Of a stretch of DNA of 64,000 bases, positions 46,565 to 64,000 are shown in pieces. Source of the DNA: Punctularia strigosozonata HHB-11173 SS5 (lineage: Eukaryota; Basidiomycota; Agaricomycetes; Corticiales; Punctulariaceae); assembly GCF_000264995.1 (NCBI RefSeq), contig NW_006767435.1, forward strand, positions 124,001 to 188,000, given 5' to 3'. The position numbers were made by a program, and so were the translations under genes. Under the pieces are notes generated by a model. It was not told the DNA's origin and did not search any database. It was given only the letters and a program-made list of their open reading frames with translations. How positions within the stretch are numbered: the stretch's first letter is position 1; the number at the start of each line of letters is the position of its first letter.

Positions 46565-48807
46565 ATGAGTTTGACGATGATACGGTCGATGTTTGATACG
46601 CCTACGCTCGTGGCGATATGTACTGCCTTGGTCGTGTACGCTTGGACCAAGAAGTCACGGCGCCCACCTGGACCGACGGGATTGCCTGTCATCGGTAATC
46701 TGCTCGATATGGCGGCGCTTGATGACCCAGCAACAATCCAACAGTGGGGGAGGAAGTTCGGTGAGTGATATTCGAACGCCAAACTAAGGGTGATACAGCT
46801 GCTAACGCACCTTCCTCAGGAGAGCTCACGTACCTGCAAGTGTTTCGTACGCCTTTCGTGTTCATCAATGGAGCAAAGGCCGCCATAGAACTTCTCGAGT
46901 CAGTCAGAACACTATTAAATGCCTCAGCAACGTCGCTGACCTTTTTTGACAGCAAGCGGAGCGCTCTGTACTCCGATCGACCTGGTTTGCCTTTTTCTGG
47001 TGGGATGTGAGTCCATCCGCAAGCATGCTCCTCGCTATCATACTGACCATTATCAACAGGGTCGGGCTGGACAAGCTCGTGCCTAACACTCCTCTCGGAG
47101 AGCGATTCCGACTGGAAAGAAAGCTGATGGGGACCGTGCTCAGCATCCGCGCCGTTACGAAGTGGGAGCATACCGTCACGAGGGAGACCAACGTGCTGAT
47201 CAAGCAGCTCTTGGAGGTGCCAGACCAGTTTGCGGAGCATATGCGAAGGCAAGCTTTAACGTTCTGTCCCCCAGACGTTCCACGGCTAACGCAACGTCTT
47301 GTCTCCATCTCGCAGGATGTCCACGGCGTTGTATTTTATGACGCTGTACGGATATCGTATTCAGGGCGATGATGATCCATACGTCAACCTCGCAGAGGAG
47401 TTCATGGCTGCATCCAGTGTCGCCATCCGAGGGGGCTGGCTAGTGGATTTCATCCCAGCTCGTGCGTCGGTAAATTGATCATGCATGCTCAGCGACTGAT
47501 GTCTTTGCCAGTGAAATGGGTGCCATTTCTTAGCTTCCATCGCAAAGCCGCCGAATGGCGAGCGCAGGTGCCAGATTGGGTCGATAAACCGTACAACGAG
47601 CTGCGGAAGTACTTCGTACGTCGATGATATCTCTTATATGGGCTAATGATAGCTCAAATTATGTCTCATTCCCCTGACAGGAGTCGAACCAAGATTGTCT
47701 CTGCGGCGCGATGTTGAATCCTGAAGGAGAGGCGAAAGCTGACGCTAAGACCGAAGAACACATCAAATGGATTGCGACCTCTGTGTACGGTGGTAAGCGT
47801 GTCACTGTCCTTCTATCTAACAACATCTGACGCCCCTCGAGCTGGTTCCGATTCGGTGCGTGGAGACGCGGTCGTTCAGTGGCAGCTCAGAGCTGAGGCC
47901 AACTGAACAGAGCGCTGTTGCCCTCAAGCACTTCATCCTCGCTATGACCATATACCCCAAGGTTTGCGGCCTTGCAGGAGCGGAATTAGACGCGGTTATA
48001 GGGAGAGACAGGCTTCCTTGTCTCGCCGACCGCAGTAAACTGCCCTACGTCGAGGCCGTCTACAAGGAGGTCCTTCGATGGGGAACGCCAATTCCGCTGA
48101 GTGGGTTCCGCGTCGTCCTACGTATGCTACAGTTGTGCTCATAGCATCGCAGGCGTCCCGCATCGTCTCATACAAGACGACGTGTACGAGGATCAAGTAC
48201 TTCCCGAGGGCACCTGGGTTCGTCCACCTATCAACGTCGACTTCATCTGTACTGATGACAAGTCCAGTGTCTAGCAAACATATGGTACGCTGGCGGGATT
48301 TGTTACGCAGGGGATGCCATGCTCATGTGTTCGTTGAAGGGCCATCCTCCACGATGACGATCTGTACCCCGACCCGCACAACTTCCGCCCAGAGCGCTTC
48401 ATGGAAGAGACAGACGCCACTCGTGCCAGGATGATCGACCCCGAAACCTACGTGTTCGGCTTCGGCAGGTGAGCATTCAGTCGTATCTCCCGGCTGCCGC
48501 ACAGTCTGACATAACACCAAAAGACGCCGCTGCCCTGGTCACAATTTTGCGCACGCGTCCGTTTGGCTAGCCATCGCACGTATATTGGCCTGCTTCGAGA
48601 TATCGCCAATCGGCGACAACGAGAAGGACGTTCCCGTACCTGCCTTCACTCCAGGGGCTATCAGGCAAGTCAGCGATCGTGCACTAGTCTACGTTGATAT
48701 ACTGAACGTATCATAGGAATACTCTGCCATTCGCATGCAAGATAACCCCTAGGCACTCGAAAGTTGCCGAGCTGATCGAACAGGATAACCCAAGCGCGAC
48801 GGATTGA
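46565..48807 (+). CDS. Cytochrome P450, paralog 1 of the cluster
   Basis: Fourteen exons: 46565-46760, 46820-46898, 46953-47006, 47060-47248, 47316-47461, 47512-47615, 47681-47792, 47842-47855, 47911-48100, 48153-48217, 48268-48284, 48340-48468, 48524-48664 and 48717-48807. They give 508 residues. N-terminal membrane anchor (LVAICTALVVYAWTK), Pro hinge RRPPGPTGLPVIGNLLD, I-helix AGSDSSAVALK in place of AGxDT, ExxR in YKEVLRW, PERF box NFRPERF and heme loop FGFGRRRCPGHNFA. Two introns use GC donors (at 47249 and 48665). The microsomal monooxygenase is highly similar to the P450 at 52278-54551 and shares its exon plan. Likely a tailoring enzyme of the local pathway. No CYP family assigned. Confidence 0.92.
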
Positions 48808-49122
48808 GATTGGCGACAGCTTTGTACTTATCTTATCTGATAAATGGTTCTAGTCCGGTTGATCTGTGTAAGGAAACATTATAGAGCTTAAGGAGTCCGT
48901 GCTTTGTCCTCTAGGTAGCGTGAAGGTTAGGGCTCAGCGACACCATGTCAACCCGGGCCACTCATGTATCATGTCAAGATCACGTACCAATCGGAACTTC
49001 CCACAGCAGATCGAGATAGGACGATTGACGGGATGCAATTTAACGATTGGTACAATGAACACATTCGCTATGGTAGAGACCGCTTTTGTGGACGAGTGAA
49101 TTACCAGACCGGCGGCGTGATC
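48808..49122. other. Intergenic, convergent ends
   Basis: Short gap between the P450 stop and the UbiA stop; nothing seen. Confidence 0.5.
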
Positions 49123-50631
49123 TCAGTACGCGCTAAGGAGCGAGCCTCGCTCAGACGCAACATAATCCGCCATCAAACCAGCGAATACGACGCCTCCAAA
49201 CGTGAACCCATTGCGATGGAACTGGAAGCGAGAGAGAGATCAGCGGTTGCATCAACAGTAACGATTACACCCCAGGCTGCACGTACCGTTTGCCAGCAGC
49301 TGGCTGGGTTCATGATGTCCACCTGGATTAGCTCGCGCGTGAGTAGCCACGCTGCGCATGCGACGGAGACCGTCCAGTACGGGATTCCCGCCTCAATGAG
49401 CACGCCGCACAGGGCGAGGGAACCGAGGAGCATCACCCCGAAGATGGACAGGATGGGTTTGGTGTACTGGGCGAATAGCAGGGCGGTCGACTTCACCCCC
49501 GCTTTCACGTCGTCGCGCATGTCCTGGCACGCGTAGATTGTATCTATGAAATGATGAGGATACAGGGTTATAGGGACTACTTCGAGGTAAATTATGCGTA
49601 CCGTACCACATCGTCCACCTGAGGGGGTTAAGAGTGAGATAGGTGCTTCGCCGACATGAAGAGTAAGGTACTAACGCCCAGCAGCCGACACTGAGGATAA
49701 GCGCCTGTTTGGTTATCTCACCGGTGACGCTAGCAGCAGCCATCGGCACGCCGCAGTTCATGGCCAGGCCTGTATATGGCATTGGTAGTCTGTATGCAGG
49801 GGAGAGTGATCAACATACCTAGCCATGCTTGAGGCCAGTACGTCACCCGCTTCATCAAGGGATATATCCCCGGCAGCACGAAGATAGAGATTATTCCGAG
49901 CTTCCAGCTGCACAAGACTCAGTATCCTGTCGCAACATTTGGCGTAGAACTGAGAGGGCACGTACGCGAGCGGGTTCAGATCCCAGACCATCATTGTGAG
50001 GATTGAAAGATGTATAGCAAGGAATACGAGGGCACCCTGGACGGATATCCTTCCATCTGCGATAGGCCGGTGCTTGGTGCGTTCTGTGTGTGCGGATTAG
50101 GCACGTAGTAAGAGAAGGTATGTCGATCCATCTAGATCCACCTACCGACTTGCCGGTCGAAATCGCGATCGAGTATATCATTCCAGATGCAGCCTGCGCC
50201 TATGGATAAAATGAGTGATGTCCCAACATATGAGCGGTTCAGAGAACCCTACTGCGAAACAAACGATTAGTCCGTGATCGCGCAACAAAAACAATATCGC
50301 ATACCTATGGAGAAGGCTTGCCCCGATGAACCCGGTTACCAGATAAGCGACGAACGTATACAGCGGCATGTGCTCGGACCGAGCGAGCATTGTGAGCGAC
50401 CATGCTACGGCAACGACGCCTTAGCGGTGCGATTCTGAGGGATAGAAGATGGAGCCTCTTACCGAACGGCCAGAACAAGACCATCGTTCCAGCGAACTTG
50501 GGAAGACGCGAGAGTTCGATCTTGGACGGCCGTCAATTGTATGAATGGGGAGTGGTGTATGGACATATCGCGGCGCTCACCCATGGCCTGATCGTCTGGG
50601 AGAAGGTAGATCGGGAGCGACCGACAGGCAT
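49123..50631 (-). CDS. UbiA-family aromatic prenyltransferase
   Basis: Ten minus-strand exons: 50631-50581, 50520-50463, 50404-50305, 50199-50146, 50083-49966, 49907-49819, 49769-49676, 49618-49602, 49543-49287 and 49221-49123, about 312 residues. Membrane protein with RPWIELSRLPKF at the start. First Asp-rich motif: NDILDRDFDRQVERTKHRP. Second Asp-rich motif: YDTIYACQDMRDDVKAG, built across two introns. These bind Mg-diphosphate of the prenyl donor. UbiA enzymes attach prenyl chains to aromatic acids. No mitochondrial targeting sequence is evident, which argues against COQ2. Oddity: the join between exons 3 and 4 (LLH to AGCIWND) is out of phase by one base with every consensus splice pair I tried, so the gene may be frameshifted or use an unusual site. 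Sits between the two P450 paralogs. Confidence 0.82.
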
Positions 50632-52277
50632 ATCGTGGGCAGATGGCCAGCAATGGGGCACCGCAGGTTCAAATTGCTGTAATATACGGAAAAGCAAGCA
50701 GCCAGGTGCACTGGCAGAGCTCCCGTTTTAAATGTGGGAGACCTCACTCGCAGTCCAGGAAGTTCATCGCCAGCTGCCAAAGATCCCTTCACGGAGATTC
50801 CACAAACGTTCTTTGGTTATGGCACCTCACGGTAGCTTAAGGTCAATGCAGCAGATGATAAGATTGTCACGACCCAAATCCGGCGATAGGAACTGAGACG
50901 CACGGATCTATGCGCCTTGTCAAGAATAGACCGCAGCGGTACAGCCTAGAACTGGGCAAATATGTCTTCCATTCGAAAATACACTTTCTGATGCATCGTC
51001 CAATCATCAGCTTCGGTATGTAACGATAGGACCGTCCGGCGTACTGTAGCAATTATCCAATGGAAACGGGCTAGCCATACCTAAATATGATGGGTGTCAG
51101 CACCTTCGTGCAGATGACGTCCACATGCCCGAGAGATCATTCTCCCATTATCCTGAGTTCCAACAGCATCCACCTGATGAGACTCGTCGAGCGGCTTTTG
51201 AGCAGACAACGCCGTTGCGGACCCTGATAGAAGGTAGGCAGCAAGCTTCACTGTGATGATCAAACGTGCATTGCCACGCGGATCATCGATTCCCTCACCA
51301 TACCATACCTCCAGCTGGCGCGTTACAGTCACGACAATGACGATGCCGAGTTGATACCGAGGGAAAGCGTTGAAGGTCAAAAGATATGCACGCGGAGATA
51401 GGAGATGATGTGTATGTATTCGCCGCCCAAGATGATTTCGCCGTGGCAGTTGAGCTAAGTACGTATAGAGTAGTGCATATACGCACGATAACAGCTTTAT
51501 CCAATCGAGTCTTGCCAAACGATTTCGACTCCGGAGATTCAGGTGACATCTAGTGACTTGCCGCTTGGGTGCCACGATGAAATTGTGGAGAGCTACCGAG
51601 CCGTGGAAGAACATTTGGCGACCTCCATCAGAAAGAAAGCAGCCTGCGGTGCTGGATGAAAATGCACGCCGCCGACCGAATGAGGCAGTATGCGTTGGCC
51701 AAATAAAGCCAAATAATGGCGGCAGCGGGGGCCAAGTCGGAGGCATCAGCGCATGACTTCCGCCTTTCCCGGATGTTCCCAATGCCCACCACTTGGCTCT
51801 GGACGGTGGGTACAGCATTGCAGCGCCTACGTACTCGTGCGACTCCACGTTCGGTGCTGCGGTCTAGGAACCCGGGCTCGCTGTACTTCGTGATCACCAC
51901 TGTCAACCCATGAGACAGATAGCGAGCAAGTACTCAATAGTTGCCCGTCCAACCCGAAGAACGGAAGATTACCACGTGGCAATGTCTGAGACTGGCTTGA
52001 GCTTCTCGGTATGGAGCAGCGGACACGCTCACGAACAGCGCGGAATCACGACTCAGAGGCAAGAGCACTCCACTCTCAAAGAGAGTGTGAGGAAGATGCC
52101 GAGGCCTACAACCAATATTCGACGCAATGCCACTAGGTTTCGAAGGAAACGTTTCTGTCAGCGAACATGGAGAGCGTGCGCTGAGATTCCCAGCTGTGAC
52201 ACCATAAGAAGACGGCGTCCGCATCCAACCACTGGTAGATCCATTGGTTGTTGGTACTCCTCGAGCACGGCATCGAA
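50632..52277. other. No supported gene
   Basis: A 255-codon minus-strand frame (51848-51081) is open but has no family features, odd composition and no homologous motif I recognise. I do not call it. The region contains the promoters of UbiA (left) and of the second P450 (right). Confidence 0.45.
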
Positions 52278-54551
52278 ATGGTCTCTATTCCGTATGGTGA
52301 GGTTGCGACCTTCTTAGCTTTGTTCTTTGGTTTGGTCGTCTACGTCAGAGGAAGAAGACATGGTCGACTCCCCGGACCCTCTGGGTTTCCGATTATCGGC
52401 AACCTGTTGGACATGACAGCGCTGGATGACCCAGCCTCCATCAAGCAATGGGGGAGGAAATACGGTGAGCAGTGTACGTGCGGAGGCGAGCGTTCACGAT
52501 GCTGATTATGAACGTATCAGGGGAGCTCACGTACCTTCGCGTGTTTCGTACGCCGTTCGTGTTCATCAACGGGGCTAAAGCCGTGACGGAGCTTCTTGAG
52601 TAAGCGAGCATGACTTGAACCCTGAGACCCTGGCGCTAACTTCGACGTATCGCATAGCAAACGCAGCGCACTCTACTCTGATAGACCGTACTTGCCCTTG
52701 GCCGGCGGGATGTAAGTGCGACATTGTACAGATAGAGCTCTGAGGACCCGTTGCACGGATGTTCATGGGACCTTTACAGCATTGGACTGGATAAGCTGGT
52801 GCCCAACACTCCGTTTGGAGAGCGATTCCGTCTTGAACGCAAGCTTATGGGCACGGTGCTCAACATCCGAGCAGTCAATAAATGGGAGCATATCATATCC
52901 AAGGAGACACACCTGCTCCTCCAACAGCTCCTTGAAACGCCAGACCAGTTTTCCGAGCATATCCGGAGGTATGTTTTGATGTCTGTTTGCTCACAATGGC
53001 CTTGACTCACGCGTGTCGATCAGGATGTCGACTGCTTTATACTTCATGACGTTGTACGGATATCCTGTCCAGGGCGACTACGACCCGTTCGTCCTCCTCG
53101 CGGAGGAGTTCATGGCTGCATCCAGCGTTGCTATCCGCGGTGGCTGGCTTGTAGACTTCATTCCGGCGCGTGCGTGAACGGTTGTGCATAAATGTCCAAT
53201 CATCGCGATTAATTACTCCCCCCCCCCCCCCGTTGCACAGTGAGATACATCCCATTCCTCAGCTTCCATCGCAAAGCTGCGGCCTGGCGAGCAAAAGTGG
53301 TAGACTGGGTTGACAAGCCTTATGCCGAACTCCGGAAGTACTTCGTGCGTCTCTTTCTATTCGAAGTTCGGGCTAGAAATGGCACGTGTTGAACCCATGG
53401 CAACACACAGGAATCGAACCGAGATTGCTTGTGCGGCGCTATGTTGAACCCTGAAGACGGACCTAGGGCCGACGCCAAGATCGAGGAACACATCAAATGG
53501 ATCGCAACTTCGGTTTACGGTCGTGAGTGTCGTTTAATGCGAGTCACTGCGTTGTACTGATGTGATAATAAGCCGGCTCTGATTCGGTACGTTCGGCTGC
53601 GTCGTATGACGAGCGCATGGTACTCATGGTGTCTGTCATAGAGCGCCGTTGCGATCAAACAGTTCATTCTGGCTCTGACTATCAACCCCGATATTTGCCG
53701 CCGGGCGGGCGAGGAGCTCGACGCCGTCGTTGGAAGAGGAAGACTCCCGACCCTTGCCGATCGCGACAGGCTGCCATACATTGAGGCCGTCTATAGGGAA
53801 GTTCTGCGATGGGGAACTCCGATCCCTCTGAGTGAGTTGGACTCTCTCTATGCTTGCAACCTCGTCATCTGACCCGAATTCAGGTGTTCCGCACCGTCTC
53901 ATCCAGGACGATGTGTATGAGGGTAAAGTGATCCCAAAGGGCTCGTGGGTAAGCTGAACCGCAGTTGATTCTAGCAAACTTGTGCTTATACGCTTCCAAC
54001 CAGTGTCTGGCAAACATTTGGTGCGCCTCGATCACGGCAATGGGTCGGTAATCGATACTAATCGTGCTGCAGGGGCATTCTACACGATGAGGAACTCTAT
54101 CCGGATCCGTTCAGTTTCCACCCGGAGCGATTCATGCAAACAACGGATGCGGTTCACGCTCGCTTGATTGACCCCGAAACCTACGTCTTCGGATTCGGCA
54201 GGTGAGATATCCTCCCTAAATGCAGTACGTTCCGAACAGGGTTTTTCTGATGCTGCGGCTGTCAGGCGCCGCTGCCCCGGCCACAACTTCGCACATGCGT
54301 CCGTCTGGCTCGCAGTGGCGTGTATCTTGGCGTGCTTCGAGGTCGCCCCTATTGGCGACAAAGAAGAGGACGTTCCGAAACCTGCGTTCACGTCAGGGGC
54401 GATCAGGCGAGTCTATCGCCGGCCGTGGTGCTCGGCGATAAATGACTGAATACGTTGCAGAACTCCGCTTCCGTTCGCATGTAAGATAACCCCAAGGCAC
54501 CCGAAGGTTGCAGAGATCATCGAACAGAACACTGAGCGTGCACAGGAGTGA
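52278..54551 (+). CDS. Cytochrome P450, paralog 2 of the cluster
   Basis: Same exon plan as the gene at 46565-48807, with exon borders at corresponding residues. Key parts: RLPGPSGFPIIGNLLDMT, DKLVPNTPFGERFRLERKL, GGWLVDFIPA, AGSDS-type I-helix (here PGSDS), YREVLRWGTPIPL, HPERFMQTTD and heme loop FGFGRRRCPGHNFA. The end ACKITPRHPKVAEIIEQ also matches paralog 1. The last intron again begins with GC (ATCAG|GCGAGT), while the intron after HIRR uses GT where paralog 1 uses GC. The first in-frame ATG (52278) gives a membrane-anchor N-terminus. The pair arose by duplication; UbiA now lies between them on the other strand. Confidence 0.92.
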
Positions 54552-54733
54552 GGTATCCTCTCGCCACTGATTTGCACAATACCTGTGCTTCAATTCTTTG
54601 TCTCCCGGAACTTTATATGTATATTTGCAATGAATGCCAAGCAATGAACGTAAATCTTGTCAAACGTGCGTCGAAAGTAGTGATCTATTCATGAAAGCTA
54701 AAATGAACAAGAGGAGCGTCGTCGTATCATGAC

Positions 54734-55859
54734 TCATTCCTTTCCCTTCCACGATATACCCTCTTCGGCCTCCAGGAGCTCGTACTCGATAAGGCCATTG
54801 AGCCACCCAGCGAAGGGGTTTCCAACCTTCGCACTAGTCGCTTTAGCTTCTTCAGGGTCAATGAGCACAGGCGGCCCCCTCGTGCTCGCCGCATCTACCA
54901 GCAGCTGGATGCGGCACGCCTTCTCGAGGCACAGGTAGAAGTACAGCGCGCCTTCTATCGTGTTCCCGGTGGCGATGATGCCGTGATTGCGCAAGATGAT
55001 GGCCTGGGCGGAAGATGGGGGTCAGGAGGCATGTCCACCTGGCGAGCCTGTCTACAAACCTTGGCGCTTCCCAGCTCCTTGGCGATGGCCTGGCCCTCTT
55101 CGTGGCCGAGCACGACGCCTCTGTATGCACTGTACACCGCATGATCCTTAAGATTACGTCAATATATGGCCGAAATCGATTGACTGCACGAAATCTGACC
55201 TCGTAAAAGGCGCAACTCTCCTGTGAGATCGGCTCCAACATCCGACCGGTCGCAGAGAAAGCCTTGCCATAGATAGAATGACTGCGGGACGGTTGTTCAA
55301 GCAAGTTCCCTCCTGAAGCATGAGAATACCTACCTATGAGCGGCACATGTGATATCTGGGCGAGCGCGATGGATAGCTGAGTGTATCATGAAAGCGGCCG
55401 TGTTGAGCGCTTGCCTCTCGCCATGCTCGATTACCTGGAAATGAAAGTGATCAGCGCTTCCCTCTAATTGGGAATGAAACAATTTCTACCTGTCCTGCTG
55501 AATTCACGAGGAGAAGATCCTTGGGCTGAATGAGCTTGAAGTGTAATCCGAGCGGATTGACCCAAAAATGGCCCGGCAAGACCGGATCGCGAACGGTTAT
55601 GTGTCCCGCAAAGCCTTCGTCATAGCCAAGCTTTCCTGAACACGAGGTTCAGATAATGGTGGATGTTCATAGAGTTAGACCACTCACCGAAGATCCTGTA
55701 CGTCTGCGCGAGCCTGAACTTGCGAAAGGCTCGCTCTTCGTAGGGATCGTCAAAGGTAGGCGGCTTGGGTAGGATAGCCATGAGTTTCGCCTGGATCGCC
55801 TTATCGTCGGGCACTTCGGCACTTTGCCCGTTTTCGCCATTCACGGTGGATGAACTCAT
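54734..55859 (-). CDS. Class II aldolase/adducin-family protein
   Basis: Six minus-strand exons: 55859-55688, 55635-55490, 55434-55334, 55281-55200, 55146-55060 and 55003-54734, 285 residues, all in frame. Typical motifs: FDDPYEERAFRKFRLAQTYR, GYDEGFAGHITVRDP, FWVNPLGLHFKLIQPKDLLL, AAFMIHSAIHRARPDITCAA, and LRNHGIIATGNTIEGALYF. The His residues of GHI, MIHSAIH and NHG correspond to metal ligands in fuculose-phosphate aldolase-type enzymes. In fungi such cytosolic proteins are common near metabolic clusters; the real substrate is unknown. Its stop codon is 182 bases from the stop of the second P450 (convergent). A cluster role is inferred from position only. Confidence 0.9.
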
Positions 55860-57037
55860 GGTGTACGACAGTTGGGACGCTCGGAAACGATGCCACTCGA
55901 GAGGACTGACTCGAAGACCTTGGCCAAGTTCAAAGAGCGTTCGGCCTAATGCATGAACTTGCGTTGATCTCCATGATGATTCTGCTTAGTCATAGCTTAT
56001 CCCGGTCCCAGCGCTGTGTGCATATGTACGGAATGAACCAAGTGGAACCTTCTGAGATTGATCGATGAATTCCGAGCTGCATGACCGAAGCCCAGGGCGA
56101 TGCCCAACGCACCGTAGTCAATATGTTCCCTCCAGCCCACCATGACACTCGTAGAAAAAGATAGCCGAATATCGATCGCAGACTTAAAGCTCTCGACGCC
56201 GACATAGCCGCATCCCAGGACGACAAACGATCTCCTTGGAGATAACACGGAAGTTGCAAGACTAGCTCAGAACAACTTCGCGCACGGCACCACAGACCGC
56301 CAGATCATCTTCGAGTTCCGGACGCACTGATGTAGCACAGCGCTGTGGGTAAGGAGGTGAATGGTCGGTAAGTTAGATATCCTGAGCTTGACGGTTTTCC
56401 TCAACCGGTAAGCAGGTAGCCGGAGCTCCCGGAGCTAGGGGCACGTGCTGCTTGTGAGAAAACTTTGTGGCACATCTCGCCGAGGCAGCCGAGCGCCAAT
56501 GAAATTGTTTCAATTTGCTCCCGGTTAGCGTTGCCTGAAATACATGTGGATATTTTCCTTGTTCGTCACATTTTTCACCAACGGGGTGTTGCAGAGGCGA
56601 ACGAGCTCGAAGATACGAACAGGATCTGTCATGTTTTCGGTACCGCGAATACGGAAGCATCTGAAGCTCTGATAATCTGCACCGGGGTATGACTTCCGGT
56701 TACGAGATGATATCGAACGTTGGTTTGGACTGTGCTCAATCCATGTTGGGGAGATAGAGGGACTTGAGATAGGAATGCACTTGCTCATCGTTGACGTATC
56801 GGCACATCGCCCGGTTTATGTGTGGTAGCTGTCTACCGGACGATGTCTTTTTGTGCCGCCGCTCAATCGACTGGACGTTGCATCGCAACTCGTGTTTTAG
56901 GAAATGTTTGCGGCTGACGTAATGTTACAGCGCGTTCCAAATCATAGCAAGACGAGACGCTGCCCTTACGCAATCGTTCATCCCTCAAGATAATTCCACA
57001 ATCGGTCCTCCTGTAACCTCAGTTAAATGTGAAACTA
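55860..57037. other. No supported gene
   Basis: Promoter side of the aldolase-family gene and unassigned sequence. Short frames only. Confidence 0.45.
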
Positions 57038-57283
57038 CTGTAATTTTACGACCTTAGGTTCGTCCCCTGTCCCCTGGCAACCTGAACTGAACCTAATTTC
57101 ACATGTTGTCCCCTGTCCCGCCACCAATATCCAGGCCTTGAACTGACCGTGGGAATTGTATCTCCTACTGTGAGAATATTGCACACTGACTACAGTCAGT
57201 TTGTGAACTTCCCACGGGCCCGAACTTGCAGCTGTCCCCTGTCCCCCTGGGGGCGGACCGAACCTAAGGTCGTAAAATTACAG
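57038..57283. mobile_element. Tc1/mariner-type MITE
   Basis: A 25-base terminal inverted repeat is identical at both ends: left CTGTAATTTTACGACCTTAG-GTTCG from 57038, right its exact complement ending at 57283. Both ends are flanked by TA (57036-57037 and 57284-57285), the target duplication of Tc1/mariner elements. Total 246 bases, non-coding. Inside, GTCCCCTGTCCC-type repeats occur at about 57064, 57109 and 57232. The perfect end match suggests recent insertion. Confidence 0.88.
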
Positions 57284-59477
57284 TATATTGAATTCCCCGA
57301 CAGGCAACAAGGAGCATACTTACATAGCTTCATCCTGCGGTTTGGCATTTGGAATAACAGAGCAAAATCTGATACACAACGGATGAGTGACATAGCGCAA
57401 GAACGGTTATTGCGCAGACTACTGAATAATCGCCGCCGTAGATGACCAAATTGATCCAACGTAGCACACGCCTGCAGGCGCGCACTCGAGGCCTGTCTCA
57501 TGTCGAAGACTGGAGAGCTGTATCTGACCCCCAGTGCACGCCCCATGGTAGGACAGTATGCGCAGGAACTACACCTCCCTCGAAAGGGGTGGATATCCCG
57601 ATGGTTTGCTCGCCCGACGGGTATGTAGTGTTGTGACCAGTGCCGACGGTGTCTACGGCAATCACCAGGCCGTTGCGGCCTCCGAGAGAGTTCGTCAGAA
57701 CTGTGGGGCAGTGTCACGACGGCAAGGTCGGACAAGAAAAGAACAAATCTAATGAAACGCGCGATTCATCAAGGTGACGACATGATAGATCAGCGCAGCG
57801 GGAGGGACGGTGGAACGGATGCATACTGTGGTGCGGGAGGCAAAAACCCGTACGTCGCGTTCGCAAGGTTCCCGAGTTGGAGCGCACTTGCGCCGGCGGT
57901 GCCTGCGGACGTGGAAGTCACGAAAGGCGCGGCGAGCTGTCAACATTCGATCGCCGAGTAGTTATCAGCGTCGGTGACGATGGCGGTTAGGTCGAGAGCG
58001 CTCGCTCGGTGAGGCGGCGCAATCAGCGAGTCCCAAAGAAACACGCAGCCAGGTATGAGAAAACGAGTTCGTGCTTCATTGTGTTAACTTGTTCAGAGCT
58101 GAGAGGGTGATGTGTCGTGTATCGAAAGATGGCGAATCTTATATGCATTAGGACGAAATTTCATTGATTGCAGTTCTGTGCTACTAGGTGGTTGCGACGC
58201 CGTCCCAACGTCATTAATGTATAGCAGCGGGCGGGAGTTGTCCAAGGTCTATTGAGCCCAACATTCACATATGGAAGCGAAAAACTGATGGTCAGCATCA
58301 AGGAAGTAATTGCATGGCCGGATCCAAGGCACTGCGCACGACTGAATGTATGAGCCATGCCGAAGATGCAGGTGTGCTGGGAAAAGCTGGCCGTATGACT
58401 CCCACCTAAGTTTCATAACTGCACGATATGGGCATGATGTAAAGCAACTTTTAAAAATCACCGAATCCTTTCCGTATCTCCTCTTCTCGAGGACAGCTGC
58501 ATATACAAGTATATGGTTTACCGCTTTACCCTCTCCTTCGTATGAAATCCATTTTGTTTTTGCTGGCCCATACATACGCCCTCTACGTAATGGAGCTACG
58601 AGCTGCACAGCAAGTTTATTCAGAAGCCTCGTTATGGAGAACCTTCGCGCGCCAGCTATCAGAGCATCACTGGTACCGGTAAAGCCAGCGCGGTGAGAAG
58701 AAAGCGAAACATCCATATGCGTTGTATCTTCCCGTTGCCCACACTGCAGCTGCGCGATGGATGATATCCGGCGTTTTCAGCCTGAGATCTGAGAGACAAT
58801 GTCTGGGCGCACAGCATCATGTAATCAGTACAGCCATAAGGAGGTAGGTAGGTAGATTGCCGATACTTCGTGATCTTCGGATGGGAAAGCGTTAAGTAAA
58901 CCGGTTGAAAGCCGGAGCAGGAGCTGGAGTTGCCGACTCACGTGCTCACAACCTCTCGCGCTTCGCGGTCTCCTGTGATGGTCCGAAGCGTTCGCAACTG
59001 CTTCCGAATCCTCGCTTTGATGCCGTGATCTTGATCAGATGGAGCGGACGCTAACTCTGACCACTAATAAGGCGTCGTTGCTTTTCCAGCCTAGCTCTAA
59101 TCTAGCCGACACCAGATAATGTCGCACGTTCCCACAGCGATTTTCATATCGCCATGGGAGGAAGATGCTCTTTGCTTTGTGGAGCACGCAGCGCATTCAT
59201 GAGAAACGAGTACATACTGAGCCAATTGGTGCGGTCTTCGGCGGTGAACATATCAAACGGACCTAGTGTATGACGGAGGTCCCATCAGGACCACTGATTA
59301 CGGGCGAAGGAGAACGAAACTGATTCTATCTGCATGGTTAGCAGGAACTGCCAAACACAAGGTCCCAGATTGGACTTCGACGTCTCACGACATTCGCTGC
59401 GACTGGACATATAAGATATCGCTTCGCATGCTGGACCCGTATTGCCGGAGTCCATACCGACGTCGACGTGAGCAACG
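57284..59477. other. No supported gene
   Basis: Frames up to about 180 codons occur (for example minus 57735-57196 and 58716-58249) but none shows family motifs or a believable exon chain. Confidence 0.45.
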
Positions 59478-60858
59478 ATGGCACCACCTACAGCACTCCA
59501 GCTCGCCATGGCGAGTATGTTCACCGAGTCTTTCTTCTTCGGTGAGTAAGAGCCATCGGACGCAACTCTAACATTATGCTTACCCGGATCATAGGTATAT
59601 ATACAGTGCTCGAGGTGGTGGTGGTCTATATTTTGTTGTAAGACGATCCGGTATTGATGCGGAGCGGTATGTCTGACGCGTTCTCTATTCAGTGCTCGGC
59701 GCCGAGGCGCGCAGAAGTCGCTCGTCGCGCTTCTCTACCTCTCTTTGTTCATGTATGCTCTGGTGACCACGCACATGGTTCTTGAAGTAGTGCAGAGTAT
59801 GCAGACAGTGGTTTCCTTGCAAAACGTGCAGACACGGACAATCGTCGGCTCTCTGTTGGTAAGCAGCTACGAATAGGCTCAACTACCACATGCCGTTGAT
59901 GATACTGGTCGCAGTCCGCCAGTGGAGACTGTATTCTGATATGGAGGGCTTGGGTTGTGTGGTCGTACAACTACTGGGTCATCGTCATACCAGTGATTGC
60001 GGTTCTGCTTGAAACAGGTACATTTCATTGACCGGCGTGCCTGAACCCTTGCTCATACGTCTATGACAGCTTTCAACTTCATTTCCTCCGCAGCAGTGTC
60101 AACATCAAACTCGTTTACTGTGTTCGCATTACCGTCCTCGATCCTCACCATGGTCAACAACATCATATGTACAGCTTTGATTGCAGGAAGAATCGGGTGA
60201 GTTTATCCCATAATCCGGGTAGTGCGGAGGTTGACGGTATACTCTCAGGTACATGCAGTGGACGACGCGCAAGGTGTTGGGCAAGAACAGTGGGACCATC
60301 AGCGCGCGCAGCTACACGGGCATCATGCTGCTTTTCATCGAGAGCGGTTTCATTTTCACGGCCGTTCAGGTGCGATCTCATAGGCATGCACCGCATCTTG
60401 ACGGATGCTAATCTCCCACGAAAGATCATCACCGTCATCCTCGACCAGATTGCGAACCCGGGCATCCATGTACGCGATCTTCTAACTCTATCCCCAGCTG
60501 TCTCACGGGCTAACGGAACTCGAATAAGGTGGTGATAAACCTGTACACGCCATTGATGGGCCTTCTTCCAACCTTGATCATCGTCCTCGTCCACTTTGAG
60601 AAGGTTCCTGGGAGCCATTCAACAAGGCAACACGAGTCGCAGCAAGCGAGCGGACGGACGTATGTGGGCAGCCAGCTCCGGTTCGCCCAATCCGGGAACA
60701 CTGGTGCCACAAGCATCACCGCCTCGCGGGGCCCGATATTCGCCTCAGGCCCGCTCGACTCCATGCAAGAGTACGGAGGCACGTTGGAACTGGACCTGGT
60801 CAAGACAGATAGCGACCTGACCAAGGCGAATCAATTGGGGGCGTACGGTTCGGTGTAA
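59478..60858 (+). CDS. Multi-pass membrane protein, basidiomycete-type (DUF6534-like)
   Basis: Eight exons: 59478-59541, 59595-59637, 59693-59858, 59915-60017, 60070-60196, 60249-60369, 60425-60469 and 60529-60858, 332 residues, all in frame. About seven hydrophobic helices are visible: LQLAMASMFTESFFFGIYTV, SLVALLYLSLFMYALVTTHM, CILIWRAWVVW, WVIVIPVIAVLLETAFNFIS, ILTMVNNIICTALIAGRIGY, TGIMLLFIESGFIFTAVQ and PLMGLLPTLIIVLVHFE. A hydrophilic Ser/Thr-rich tail follows. The order of helices and the D-x-I-L-I-W-R-x-W-V-V-W segment resemble large mushroom families of unknown function with a receptor-like seven-helix fold. Located between the aldolase-family gene and the third P450, so a transport or sensing role in the cluster is possible but only positional. 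Confidence 0.7.
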
Positions 60859-61212
60859 ACGCCATACGTAAACTCCATGACGTGGTTTCACATTGCCTGG
60901 CGCGCATTATTCCAGTCATCCAGGCCGCTTGACTGTATCTTTATCGACCTAATGCTGTACCAATGCTGTACCTTGCACTCTGTTGTGTATTTATTAGACT
61001 TTCCGCGCAGAACGCACACACAGGCTCCGTAATGGTCTCGGAGAATCTGATCGCCTCAATCATTACACTCGTGAGACAGTGTTGTTGCCTCGTCAATGGC
61101 CGCCCGATAGGAGTGTGATCAGCAGCTACCGAACGTATATAATCCCGAGATGAGTTTGTGGTCGCGGATAAGCCTGACAGTGACGGTGCCCACTCCACAC
61201 GCGCGGATAACG
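60859..61212. other. Intergenic with promoter of the third P450
   Basis: TATATAA at 61136-61142 is the only feature seen. Confidence 0.5.
61136..61142 (+). promoter_or_regulatory. TATA box of the third P450
   Basis: TATATAA 71 bases before the ATG at 61213. The earlier in-frame ATG at 61150 is too close to this box to be the main start, which is why 61213 is preferred. Confidence 0.55.
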
Positions 61213-63423
61213 ATGCTCTCTTTAGCCGGGGCGATTCCCACACTCGCCATCGCACTTGCAGTCACCACCGTCGCGACCGTTTTATACAGGAGAATCGTCT
61301 ATGGCGCATACAAGCCCTTGCCTGGGCCGTCTGGTCTTCCAATAATTGGAAATGTACTCCGGATGCCAAAAAGTTACGAATGGCTGCATTGGGCGGAGCA
61401 TAAGGACGTGTATGGTACGTTACTGCAGTTCCGTCGCCCACAGTGCGAGATTCTCAAGTAATATCGTTTAGGACCGATCAGCGCTGTGAATGTTCTGGGA
61501 CAAACTATTGTTATACTCAACACCCTCGAAGTAGCGAATGACATGCTCAAGACTCGGTCCGCCGCGTACTCCGGGCGGCCAGTCCTGCAGTTCGCAGGCG
61601 AGATGTACGTGGTCCTCGAGGATAAGAACAAATGTCGCGCGGAGTGACTTGACTCTGGGGCATAGGATAGGATGGAACAGGCAGATGATTCTCTCAACCT
61701 ACAATGACCATTTCAAGTCTATGCGGAAACTCGTCTACCGATACATAGGGACGAAGGCCGCGATCTCCCGGCATCAGCCTATCCAGGAGCGCGAAATACG
61801 CTATTTCCTTGCACGTGTTCAGGATGACCCATCCCAAATTCTGCACTATCTTCGGGTGTGAGCGAGATTCGCGCCGATGCAGTTAGCTTTGTCGCTCAAA
61901 TGCTGTCCGTAGCGCCGTAGGGAGCATCCACCTCCAGCTCAGTCATGGTTATATCATGGAAACCTCCCGTCCCGACCCGCTCGTCACCCTGGTGGAAACC
62001 GCCGCGCAGCAATTCTACGCCGCGACGCGTCCGGGAGATTGGCTCGTCGACATATTCCCGTCCCTGCGGCGCCTGCCTCCCTGGATCTTAGGCTCGAAGT
62101 TCACGAAGACCCTCAACGAGTTCAAGGGGACGAACCTCGAGCAAGCCAACCGTCCGCATGATTTTGTGAAACGCGAGATGGCATGTATCGGAGACGGGGT
62201 TTTCGGACCATATTCGGTGGCTAACATCCTGCCTGTAGGCTTCCGGCTCAGCCATTCCCTCTTTCACATCTACCCTCATCAACGAGAAAGAAGACGAAGA
62301 ATCGATCAAATGGGCAGCCAACTCGCTATACGGCAAGTCCATGCATACAGGTTCATGTTCCGGGTCCTTGACTGTTTGATTACAGGCGGAGGGACCGATA
62401 CTGTGGGTTGCGGCAAAACGCGTCTCTCACGGCGTTACTGACCTTTAATGCTTGGACGGATCAGGTCGTCGCTACCTTGTGAGTTTGGGTTTTTCTCCCG
62501 AGATGGGATATCTTGCGCGGGGATTCAACGTGAATCGCATTACTCAGGACGGCCTTCTTCCTGGCCATGGTCAAGAACCGCGATGTGCAGCTTCGGGCGC
62601 AGAAAGAGATCGACGATATCGTCGGCACCTCGCGCCTCCCGACCTTCGCCGATCTGGAGCGACTGCCGTACGTCGCCGCACTGCACACGGAGCTCCTGCG
62701 ATGGCACACGATCGGACCCATGGGTGCGCACACGTCTTTCCCACGGAAGAGAATAGGTTAATGATGTCCACACCAGGGATACCTCATGCGACCACCGACG
62801 ACGACGTCTACAACGGGTACTTCATCCCGCGCGGATCGATCGTGTTGAGCAACTTGTGGTCAGACCGGATTAAAGACTTCCCTCAGCAGAGGAGCTAAGC
62901 ATAATCCCGCGCGACAGGCTGATAGCGCATGACCCGGACAACTACGATGACCCGATGGCGTTCAAGCCCGAGCGTTTCCTCGGGCCGGATCCCCAGCTCG
63001 ATCCGAGGAGCTACGTGTTCGGATTCGGACGGAGGTACGCCGCGGCGCTCTCTGTCGTCGTCGTCGAGGACATGCTGCTAAGCGATTTGAACACGGACAG
63101 GCGGTGCCCCGGCCTCGAGCTCGCGGACGCGACGATCTCGTTGGCCATCGCGATGTGCCTCTCGGCCTTCACGTTCTCGTGCGAGGACCAGAGCCCGGTC
63201 GATCCCCGAGAGTCGTTTATCCCCGGGACTGTGTGGTACGTCACCTTACCTCGCAAGCATTCGCGAGACGTGTTTGATGACAATCGTTTCTTCCTCGTTG
63301 TTCGACAGTCACCCCAAGCCGTTCAACTTTGACGTAGCCGTGCGGTCGCCGGAGAAGGCGCGGCTCATGAAGGCGGTCTGGGACGAGCTCCCACCTCCGC
63401 CGAGCAACGCTGACAAACTGTGA
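61213..63423 (+). CDS. Cytochrome P450, third and distinct member
   Basis: About twelve exons. N-terminal membrane anchor ([20 protein letters not shown]), hinge [18 protein letters not shown]-helix GGTDT, ExxR in [12 protein letters not shown] box [12 protein letters not shown] and heme loop [15 protein letters not shown]. The end is [18 protein letters not shown]. Most joins are GT-AG and preserve frame, including the one inside the heme loop (AG|GTACGCC...ACAG|GCGG). The intron before GGTDT starts with GC (62333-62395). It belongs to a different P450 group from the two paralogs: its I-helix, C-helix and helix-K regions differ clearly. Probable tailoring monooxygenase of the same locus. Confidence 0.88.
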
Positions 63424-63634
63424 AGATCAGCAACAGTTGAACCCCTCTCTGCAACACTTGTACATAGAACGCGGGCTCTCCCGTCATCACAAACTATATA
63501 TATCCACAGGGTTATCGTGATACAAATACAAAGAATACTTGCGTATACGGTCGTGGGTGCGGTCAGAGAGAAAGGATGTGAGGGAGCGGGCCCACTGGTA
63601 CGATCCGATGAGGGTTGATCTACGAACGCACGCA

Positions 63635-64000
63635 TCAGTTACCATCGCCGTGAGGTCGACGTGGGTGCCATACCATGGGGTGTGACCAGAAGTAGTGCAC
63701 TTTGATGTGGTCGAAGTTCGTTGTCTCGCCGAACGCCGGCACGGTCCAGTACTGGGTCAAAAGGGCAAGATCGGCTCACGGTCAGCGGTGGGGAATGGTC
63801 ACTCGAAGCTTGCAGGGACACTCACGAGCTTGCGCAACCAGCGGTGCAGGTTGGGGTAGCCGCTGCGGATGGTGCGGATGTTGCATTTGAAGTGGGTGGC
63901 GTACACGACGTCGAAGCGGATCTGGGGGGGTGAGGTGCGGAAGTTATGTACGGGGGCGAAGAGAGAGAGGGGGCAGAGAAGGGGGACTGACGATGGTCGG
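63635..64000 (-). CDS. Xi-class (ECM4-like) glutathione transferase, 3' part only
   Basis: Cut by the right window edge. Visible minus-strand exons: 64000-63992 (PTI), 63921-63826 and 63751-63635. They encode [52 protein letters not shown]. This is the C-terminal half of glutathionyl-hydroquinone reductases (Ecm4/Gto/PcpF-like), which reduce glutathionyl-quinones. The tail after KVHY ([18 protein letters not shown]) differs from the usual family end and may be specific or mis-spliced. Quinone chemistry would suit a neighbouring pathway that makes oxidised prenyl-phenols, but this is only inference. Confidence 0.85.

Follow-up and report, generated by a model that had tools for sequence, protein, structure and literature searches.

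The window analysed here, 64,000 nucleotides of Punctularia strigosozonata HHB-11173 SS5 (C3:124001-188000), holds at 46.6-55.9 kb a candidate specialised-metabolism locus for a prenylated aromatic compound (an aromatic meroterpenoid), and we put the probability that its genes act jointly in this way at about 0.45. We found a UbiA-family prenyltransferase gene (49123..50631, minus strand) between two cytochrome P450 genes, P450a (46565..48807, plus strand) and P450b (52278..54551, plus strand), with a class II aldolase-fold gene (54734..55859, minus strand; PF00596, PRK06208 type) next to them, so a backbone enzyme and tailoring genes are adjacent. UbiA-P450 loci are already a described kind of system in basidiomycetes, and to that extent the original prediction, made from the letters of the window, of a candidate for an undescribed system is not borne out. 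The new point is the aldolase-fold gene, whose nearest characterised kin, judged from sequence comparison, are acid-trimming oxygenases and not sugar aldolases.

In the pathway that we propose, the aldolase-fold protein would use Fe(II), bound by three histidines, to shorten an aromatic alpha-keto or alpha-hydroxy acid oxidatively to a benzoate. Candidate acids are 4-hydroxyphenylpyruvate or 4-hydroxymandelate, derived from tyrosine, and the trimming could come either before or after prenylation. UbiA would attach a dimethylallyl diphosphate (DMAPP), geranyl diphosphate (GPP) or farnesyl diphosphate (FPP) chain to the ring, and P450a and P450b would oxidise the ring or the chain. A quinone or hydroquinone product would suit the adjoining Xi-class glutathione transferase (GST), which is of the glutathionyl-hydroquinone reductase (GHR) type and would be an optional member.

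Mushroom UbiA enzymes start several bioactive meroterpenoid pathways, for which general metabolism is often assumed to provide the aromatic acid. Should the acid be made or trimmed by the aldolase-fold protein, this pathway would have its own acid supply, and two activities known together from aminocoumarin antibiotics would be joined in a eukaryote. In that case one member of the large class II aldolase-like family would also gain a function, and there would be a candidate enzyme for how fungi may make 4-hydroxybenzoate.

Gene models were built exon by exon, guided per region and by eye, and the genome searched comprised 33.57 Mb in 32 contigs. Self-trained automatic gene finding was rejected because it produced false micro-exons and a stricter run missed low-bias genes. 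P450a, P450b, a third P450 gene (P450c; 61213..63423, plus strand) and the aldolase-fold gene gave open models with consistent splice sites. The span first proposed for the cluster, 46565-63423, proved exact: 46565 is the P450a start codon and 63423 the final base of the P450c stop codon. Pfam domains were found for the P450, UbiA, aldolase II and GST models, and the P450, UbiA and class II aldolase/adducin-family assignments made earlier were each confirmed by matches over the cut-off.

The window UbiA protein matched Pfam UbiA (PF01040) with 181 bits (cut-off 34.2), and its best NCBIfam model was TIGR01474 (4-hydroxybenzoate prenyltransferase) at 266.4 bits, under the equivalog cut-off of 275.45. 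Its model holds all three UbiA motifs listed in PMC12790560 (cited, like the other papers below, from part of its text): NDxxDxxxD as NDILDRDFD, YxxxK as YPLMK and DxxxD as DMRDD. At least seven UbiA-family stretches occur in the genome, namely the window copy, genes on contigs C15, C4, C1 and C8, one gene on C10 (C10a) and a decayed piece on C10. The C15 gene was over the heme O synthase cut-off. The C4 gene scored 321.8 bits, over the TIGR01474 cut-off. Hence, C4 is COQ2-like. For C1 (249.5 bits, from a model with an unspliced stretch), C8 (252.4 bits) and C10a (236.8 bits), TIGR01474 was again the best model, below its cut-off.

In a UbiA tree of 10 rows that included bacterial sequences, after one bacterial sequence in the wrong reading frame (L112) and a very long COX10 were dropped and with two loci that gave no usable frame (L113, L114) left out, the window copy grouped with C10a (81/83), then C8 (100/99), then C1 (96/96). 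Pairing it with the COQ2-like C4 was rejected by the approximately unbiased (AU) test (p 4e-15). By family model and tree, the window UbiA is of the 4-hydroxybenzoate-prenyltransferase type and distinct from the genome's COQ2-like gene; the aromatic type is thus supported, and the grouping with COQ2 that had been named in advance as its refutation did not appear. That the gene is instead the mitochondrial COQ2 of ubiquinone synthesis, to whose family it belongs, has a negligible probability: besides the rejected grouping, C4 exceeds the cut-off that the window copy falls below, and the window model has 17 residues before the conserved IELSR stretch.

A tblastn search (E 1e-3) with the P450, aldolase-fold and membrane-protein sequences of the window and the flavin oxidase beyond it gave no match within ~12-15 kb of the UbiA genes on C1, C4, C8 and C10. 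The decayed UbiA fragment on C10 lies at ~1520068-1520445 (L019), ~7 kb from C10a, and is probably a dead tandem copy.

We considered whether the product of the window gene is a terpene cyclase of the UbiA type, as are Fma-TC, EriG and Tps1A of Antrodia, with the P450s tailoring a terpene and the aldolase-fold gene unrelated. Basidiomycete UbiA-type cyclases clustered with P450s do exist (PMC9835599, in the part available). The tps1/tps2 clusters of Antrodia cinnamomea, with UbiA-type bisabolene synthases, resemble our locus in that a P450 gene accompanies a basidiomycete UbiA gene; their UbiA proteins cyclise terpenes, whereas the family model places the window UbiA with the aromatic prenyltransferases. 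Judged by family model and motifs, a cyclase is improbable: the window UbiA reaches 266 bits with the 4-hydroxybenzoate prenyltransferase model and retains all three prenyltransferase motifs. Since the best family model is 4-hydroxybenzoate prenyltransferase, an aromatic acceptor is favoured over the cyclase reading.

For the aromatic prenyltransferase that we prefer, the likely acceptor can be narrowed. Among nine characterised basidiomycete UbiA enzymes the vast majority take 4-hydroxybenzoate (PMC12790560), and a few basidiomycete UbiA enzymes accept hydroquinone or orsellinate (PMC12790560; PMC10257657), according to the text available from both papers. As had been remarked from the letters, no polyketide synthase or terpene cyclase is visible: neither ketosynthase (PF00109, 15 genome matches) nor terpene synthase (PF19086, 14 genome matches) had a match on C3:124-226 kb. 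Hence, an amino-acid-derived aromatic acid is a natural acceptor. The earlier suggestion was that the aromatic substrate may come from primary metabolism, with the aldolase gene read as such; the nearest characterised kin of the aldolase-fold gene suggest that it may itself make or trim the acid.

All three P450 models matched Pfam p450, with 210, 202 and 217 bits (cut-off 22.8). P450a (508 aa, 14 exons) and P450b (505 aa, 14 exons) have the same intron pattern, flank UbiA and are 76.9% identical; P450c (511 aa, 12 exons) is ~33% identical to both, in keeping with the three P450s of two kinds noted originally. P450a has the heme motif FGFGRRRCPG and the I-helix motif AGSDSS, and P450c has FGFGRRRCPG and GGGTDT. 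The best match of P450a and P450b elsewhere in the genome is ~41% identical over its best stretch, and P450c has no close paralogue in the genome. Between P450a and P450b we found 0.15 nonsynonymous (Ka) and 1.89 synonymous (Ks) substitutions per site. Hence, P450a and P450b are an old duplication kept under selection.

Four GC-AG introns were found in the P450 genes, two in P450a, one in P450b and one in P450c. The last GC-AG intron of P450a and that of P450b are at the same place, and strict GT-AG models would miss such introns. Elsewhere on the same contig, at C3:1671596-1678941, several P450 matches follow one another; they are distantly related to the window P450s.

The aldolase-fold protein (285 aa, 6 exons) matched Pfam Aldolase_II (PF00596) with 163 bits (cut-off 22.2). 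Its closest solved relatives were 4xxf (227 bits) and NovR (208 bits), followed by 9n43 and TqaM (~165 bits), and L-fuculose-1-phosphate aldolases scored ~50 bits. Identity was 47% to 4xxf, 44% to NovR (over ~230 residues) and 40% to TqaM. The entry name of 4xxf is fuculose-1-phosphate aldolase, and the protein presumably comes from the basidiomycete yeast Glaciozyma antarctica. A zinc sugar-phosphate aldolase (FucA) is disfavoured as an identity by family-model score, with 51.2 bits to the fucA equivalog TIGR01086 against a cut-off of 400.25. The metal-site histidines H139, H141 and H203 were invariant among five aligned sequences. Searching the genome with the protein gave no second match; one further PF00596 gene was found in the genome, on C4.

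CloR and NovR are three-histidine iron oxygenases that convert prenylated 4-hydroxyphenylpyruvate to the mandelate and then to prenylated 4-hydroxybenzoate (PMC13111500). In a fungal pathway, the non-heme iron oxygenase TqaM oxidises a 2-hydroxy acid decarboxylatively (PMC11880133), and a further homologue of class II aldolases acts as an Fe(II) dioxygenase (PMC5216522); all three statements follow the portions of these papers at hand. Because its nearest characterised kin are NovR/CloR and TqaM, the window protein probably trims acids oxidatively, which is a likelier role for it than that of a sugar aldolase. These similarities suggest a putative NovR/CloR-like Fe(II) oxygenase or decarboxylase.

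The resemblance to NovR and CloR of the novobiocin and clorobiocin pathways of Streptomyces extends to the class II aldolase fold, the three histidines and the setting: an aromatic prenyltransferase belongs to the NovR/CloR pathway, and UbiA lies beside the aldolase-fold gene here. The systems differ in that CloQ belongs to the ABBA/PT-barrel superfamily (PMC5371340, from its available part) and the window prenyltransferase is a membrane UbiA. They differ also in that no clade of the window protein with NovR was resolved and that the activity here is a prediction. A bolder proposal, which we regard as unlikely, is that the locus matches the CloQ/CloR module in a eukaryote: beside a membrane UbiA, a NovR/CloR-like iron oxygenase would cut an arylpyruvate or mandelate to the benzoate, before or after prenylation, and so give a dedicated tyrosine-to-4-hydroxybenzoate meroterpenoid route independent of ubiquinone synthesis.

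TqaM, from the 2-aminoisobutyrate branch of the fungal tryptoquialanine pathway, is likewise encoded by a class II aldolase-fold gene and carries out its decarboxylative oxidation of a 2-hydroxy acid within a biosynthetic pathway. Unlike the window protein, it falls in a separate clade with 9n43 (100/100), and its pathway has no prenylation.

We compared the locus by description with basidiomycete UbiA pathways: ClaS (Clitocybe clavipes), VibP1/VibP2 (vibralactone), PanE (Panus rudis), LaPT3 and the pleurotin gene HGRIS_000139. The motifs NDxxDxxxD, YxxxK and DxxxD and oxidative tailoring after prenylation are common to those systems and ours. Unlike for the window locus, the accessible text of PMC12790560, PMC10257657 and PMC11574748 mentions a class II aldolase-fold gene for none of them (the word aldolase is absent from that of the last two), and the open literature searched yielded no described cluster joining UbiA with a class II aldolase. 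The vibralactone genes are said to be unlikely to be clustered (PMC10257657, same portion).

Several findings weigh against the pathway that we propose, and a first group concerns the aldolase-fold protein. Between the scores of NovR/TqaM and those of FucA lie adducins (120 and 89 bits), 3ocr (107 bits) and other aldolase-named chains (to 83 bits). Hence, the class II aldolase-like family is functionally mixed. It is also very common in bacteria, with relatives in at least 534 of 594 pattern-matching stretches, and bacterial members of no known function are up to 49% identical to the window protein, NovR only 44% (the bacterial relatives compared were the best 80 among those listed, in an alignment and tree of 85 rows). 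The three metal-site histidines are kept in 84-85 of 85 family members and, being near-universal in the family, are a weak mark of the NovR/CloR type. The FYEDH motif, tried as a mark of NovR kinship, was rejected as family-wide (H169 is present in 80 of 85). In the 85-row tree the window protein grouped weakly with 4xxf (86/62) on long branches; NovR was on a long branch, and no NovR clade was resolved. With NovR unplaced, the family widespread and bacterial identities as high, the substrate that we suggest for the aldolase-fold protein is taken from the adjoining UbiA and not from orthology.

A second group concerns the regulation and extent of the locus. Shared 7- and 8-mers in six upstream regions were no more numerous than chance would give, since 18% and 19%, respectively, of 300 random sets had as many, and there was no outstanding shared 9-mer in these regions nor a shared 8-10-mer in the four core promoters. 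A 3.7-kb spacer, holding a repeat that resembles a miniature inverted-repeat transposable element (MITE), parts the core genes from a membrane-protein gene and P450c. Owing to this spacer and to the tendency of the membrane protein to pair with P450s described below, we limited the core to 46.6-55.9 kb; the membrane protein and P450c are possible members that may be separate from it.

These points bear on whether the genes are chance neighbours, a P450/GST detoxification area that happens to hold a duplicated UbiA and a class II aldolase-fold gene of unrelated, catabolic function, with no joint product. At least 93 P450 loci were counted in the genome (33.6 Mb), and 7 of the loci listed begin a group of three P450s within 17 kb, the window trio included. 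Hence, a P450 trio alone is not special. The commonness of the aldolase family in bacteria, the lack of a shared promoter word and the occurrence of Xi-class GSTs at two other places in the genome also fit chance, and the neighbourhoods of eight of the 80 bacterial aldolase relatives, judged by eye, had no consistent partner. On the other hand, three or more P450 loci within 12 kb occur at just 0.19% of genome positions (among the loci listed, with the window trio counted in), and P450a and P450b are a selected pair found only around the window UbiA. On balance we consider chance neighbourhood rather unlikely. The earlier proposal that these genes act together is therefore upheld in part: the selected, locally restricted P450 pair flanking UbiA speaks for it, and the missing promoter word speaks against it.

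A further point against joint production of a compound is the reading frame of the window UbiA. In the paralogues on C8 (L014) and C10 (L020) an exon ending CAC-AG precedes a micro-exon, 5 nt long in the first and 8 nt in the second, and the splice context around the micro-exon is common to the three paralogues. Following the C8/C10 pattern, the window gene would have a 4-nt micro-exon and lose its frame (~50.25-50.34 kb, by eye). An alternative splice route, the single open one found, encodes a protein of 316 residues in which the three UbiA motifs are all present. The off-by-one may reflect genuine alternative splicing, an error in the sequence or a break of recent date.

If it is a break, the window UbiA would be a recent pseudogene and the product no longer made, and the clearly decayed fragment near C10a fits such a fate. 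However, the remaining exons of the window UbiA are intact, no member of its group has a shorter branch in the tree (0.19 vs 0.37 and 0.44), and a base-calling or assembly error would explain the frame as well. Compared with C8 over 136 codons, Ka was 0.264 and Ks 1.9 (Ks was saturated against C10a), and these coding changes show constraint. Hence, old decay of the window UbiA is disfavoured, and we hold a decaying locus to be distinctly unlikely.

Outside the core, the multi-helix membrane protein (59517..60858, plus strand; a 295-aa model with an uncertain start) had no Pfam match even at E 10 and no NCBIfam family. It had been described as a seven-helix protein; our model has six hydrophobic segments, with the N-terminus uncertain. 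Distant kin occur at three other places in the genome, on C20, C2 and C25. The C20 relative (L120, C20:247001-252000) directly precedes a P450 that has the same orientation, the C2 relative is ~6 kb from a P450 (C2:2770108 and C2:2763869), and no P450 was seen near the C25 relative. The pattern hints that the membrane protein habitually pairs with P450s and not with UbiA. The repeat in the spacer (57036..57285, no strand assigned) is 250 bp long with ~27-bp inverted ends and has dozens of scattered copies, 67-98% identical, on many contigs; it is a MITE-like non-autonomous element and not part of the pathway.

The Xi-class GST (Ecm4/GHR type) has its 3' part in the window at 63563..64000 on the minus strand and runs past it to ~65072. 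It matched Pfam GST_C_2 with 67.5 bits (cut-off 24.9), and its closest solved chains were 3ppu (448 bits, from a model mis-spliced beside the CPWA motif) and Trametes GST Xi 1, which come from Phanerochaete and Trametes; the Ecm4-like assignment made from the letters was sound. This closeness and the abundance of short introns are what one expects of basidiomycete DNA. By eye, the CPWA motif spans a splice junction. The chain 3ppu is named PcGHR1, and strict conservation of CPWA among GHRs is reported (PMC5063366, as far as the text was available). Since the genome has Xi GSTs at two further places, the role of this one is possibly general quinone defence.

Contig C3 shows no sign of a nearby telomere: the terminal 3 kb on each side hold no TTAGGG arrays. 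Just past the window lies a gene for a BBE-type flavin adenine dinucleotide (FAD) oxidase, at 66180-68920 in window numbering (C3:190180-192920), which is possibly an extension of the locus.

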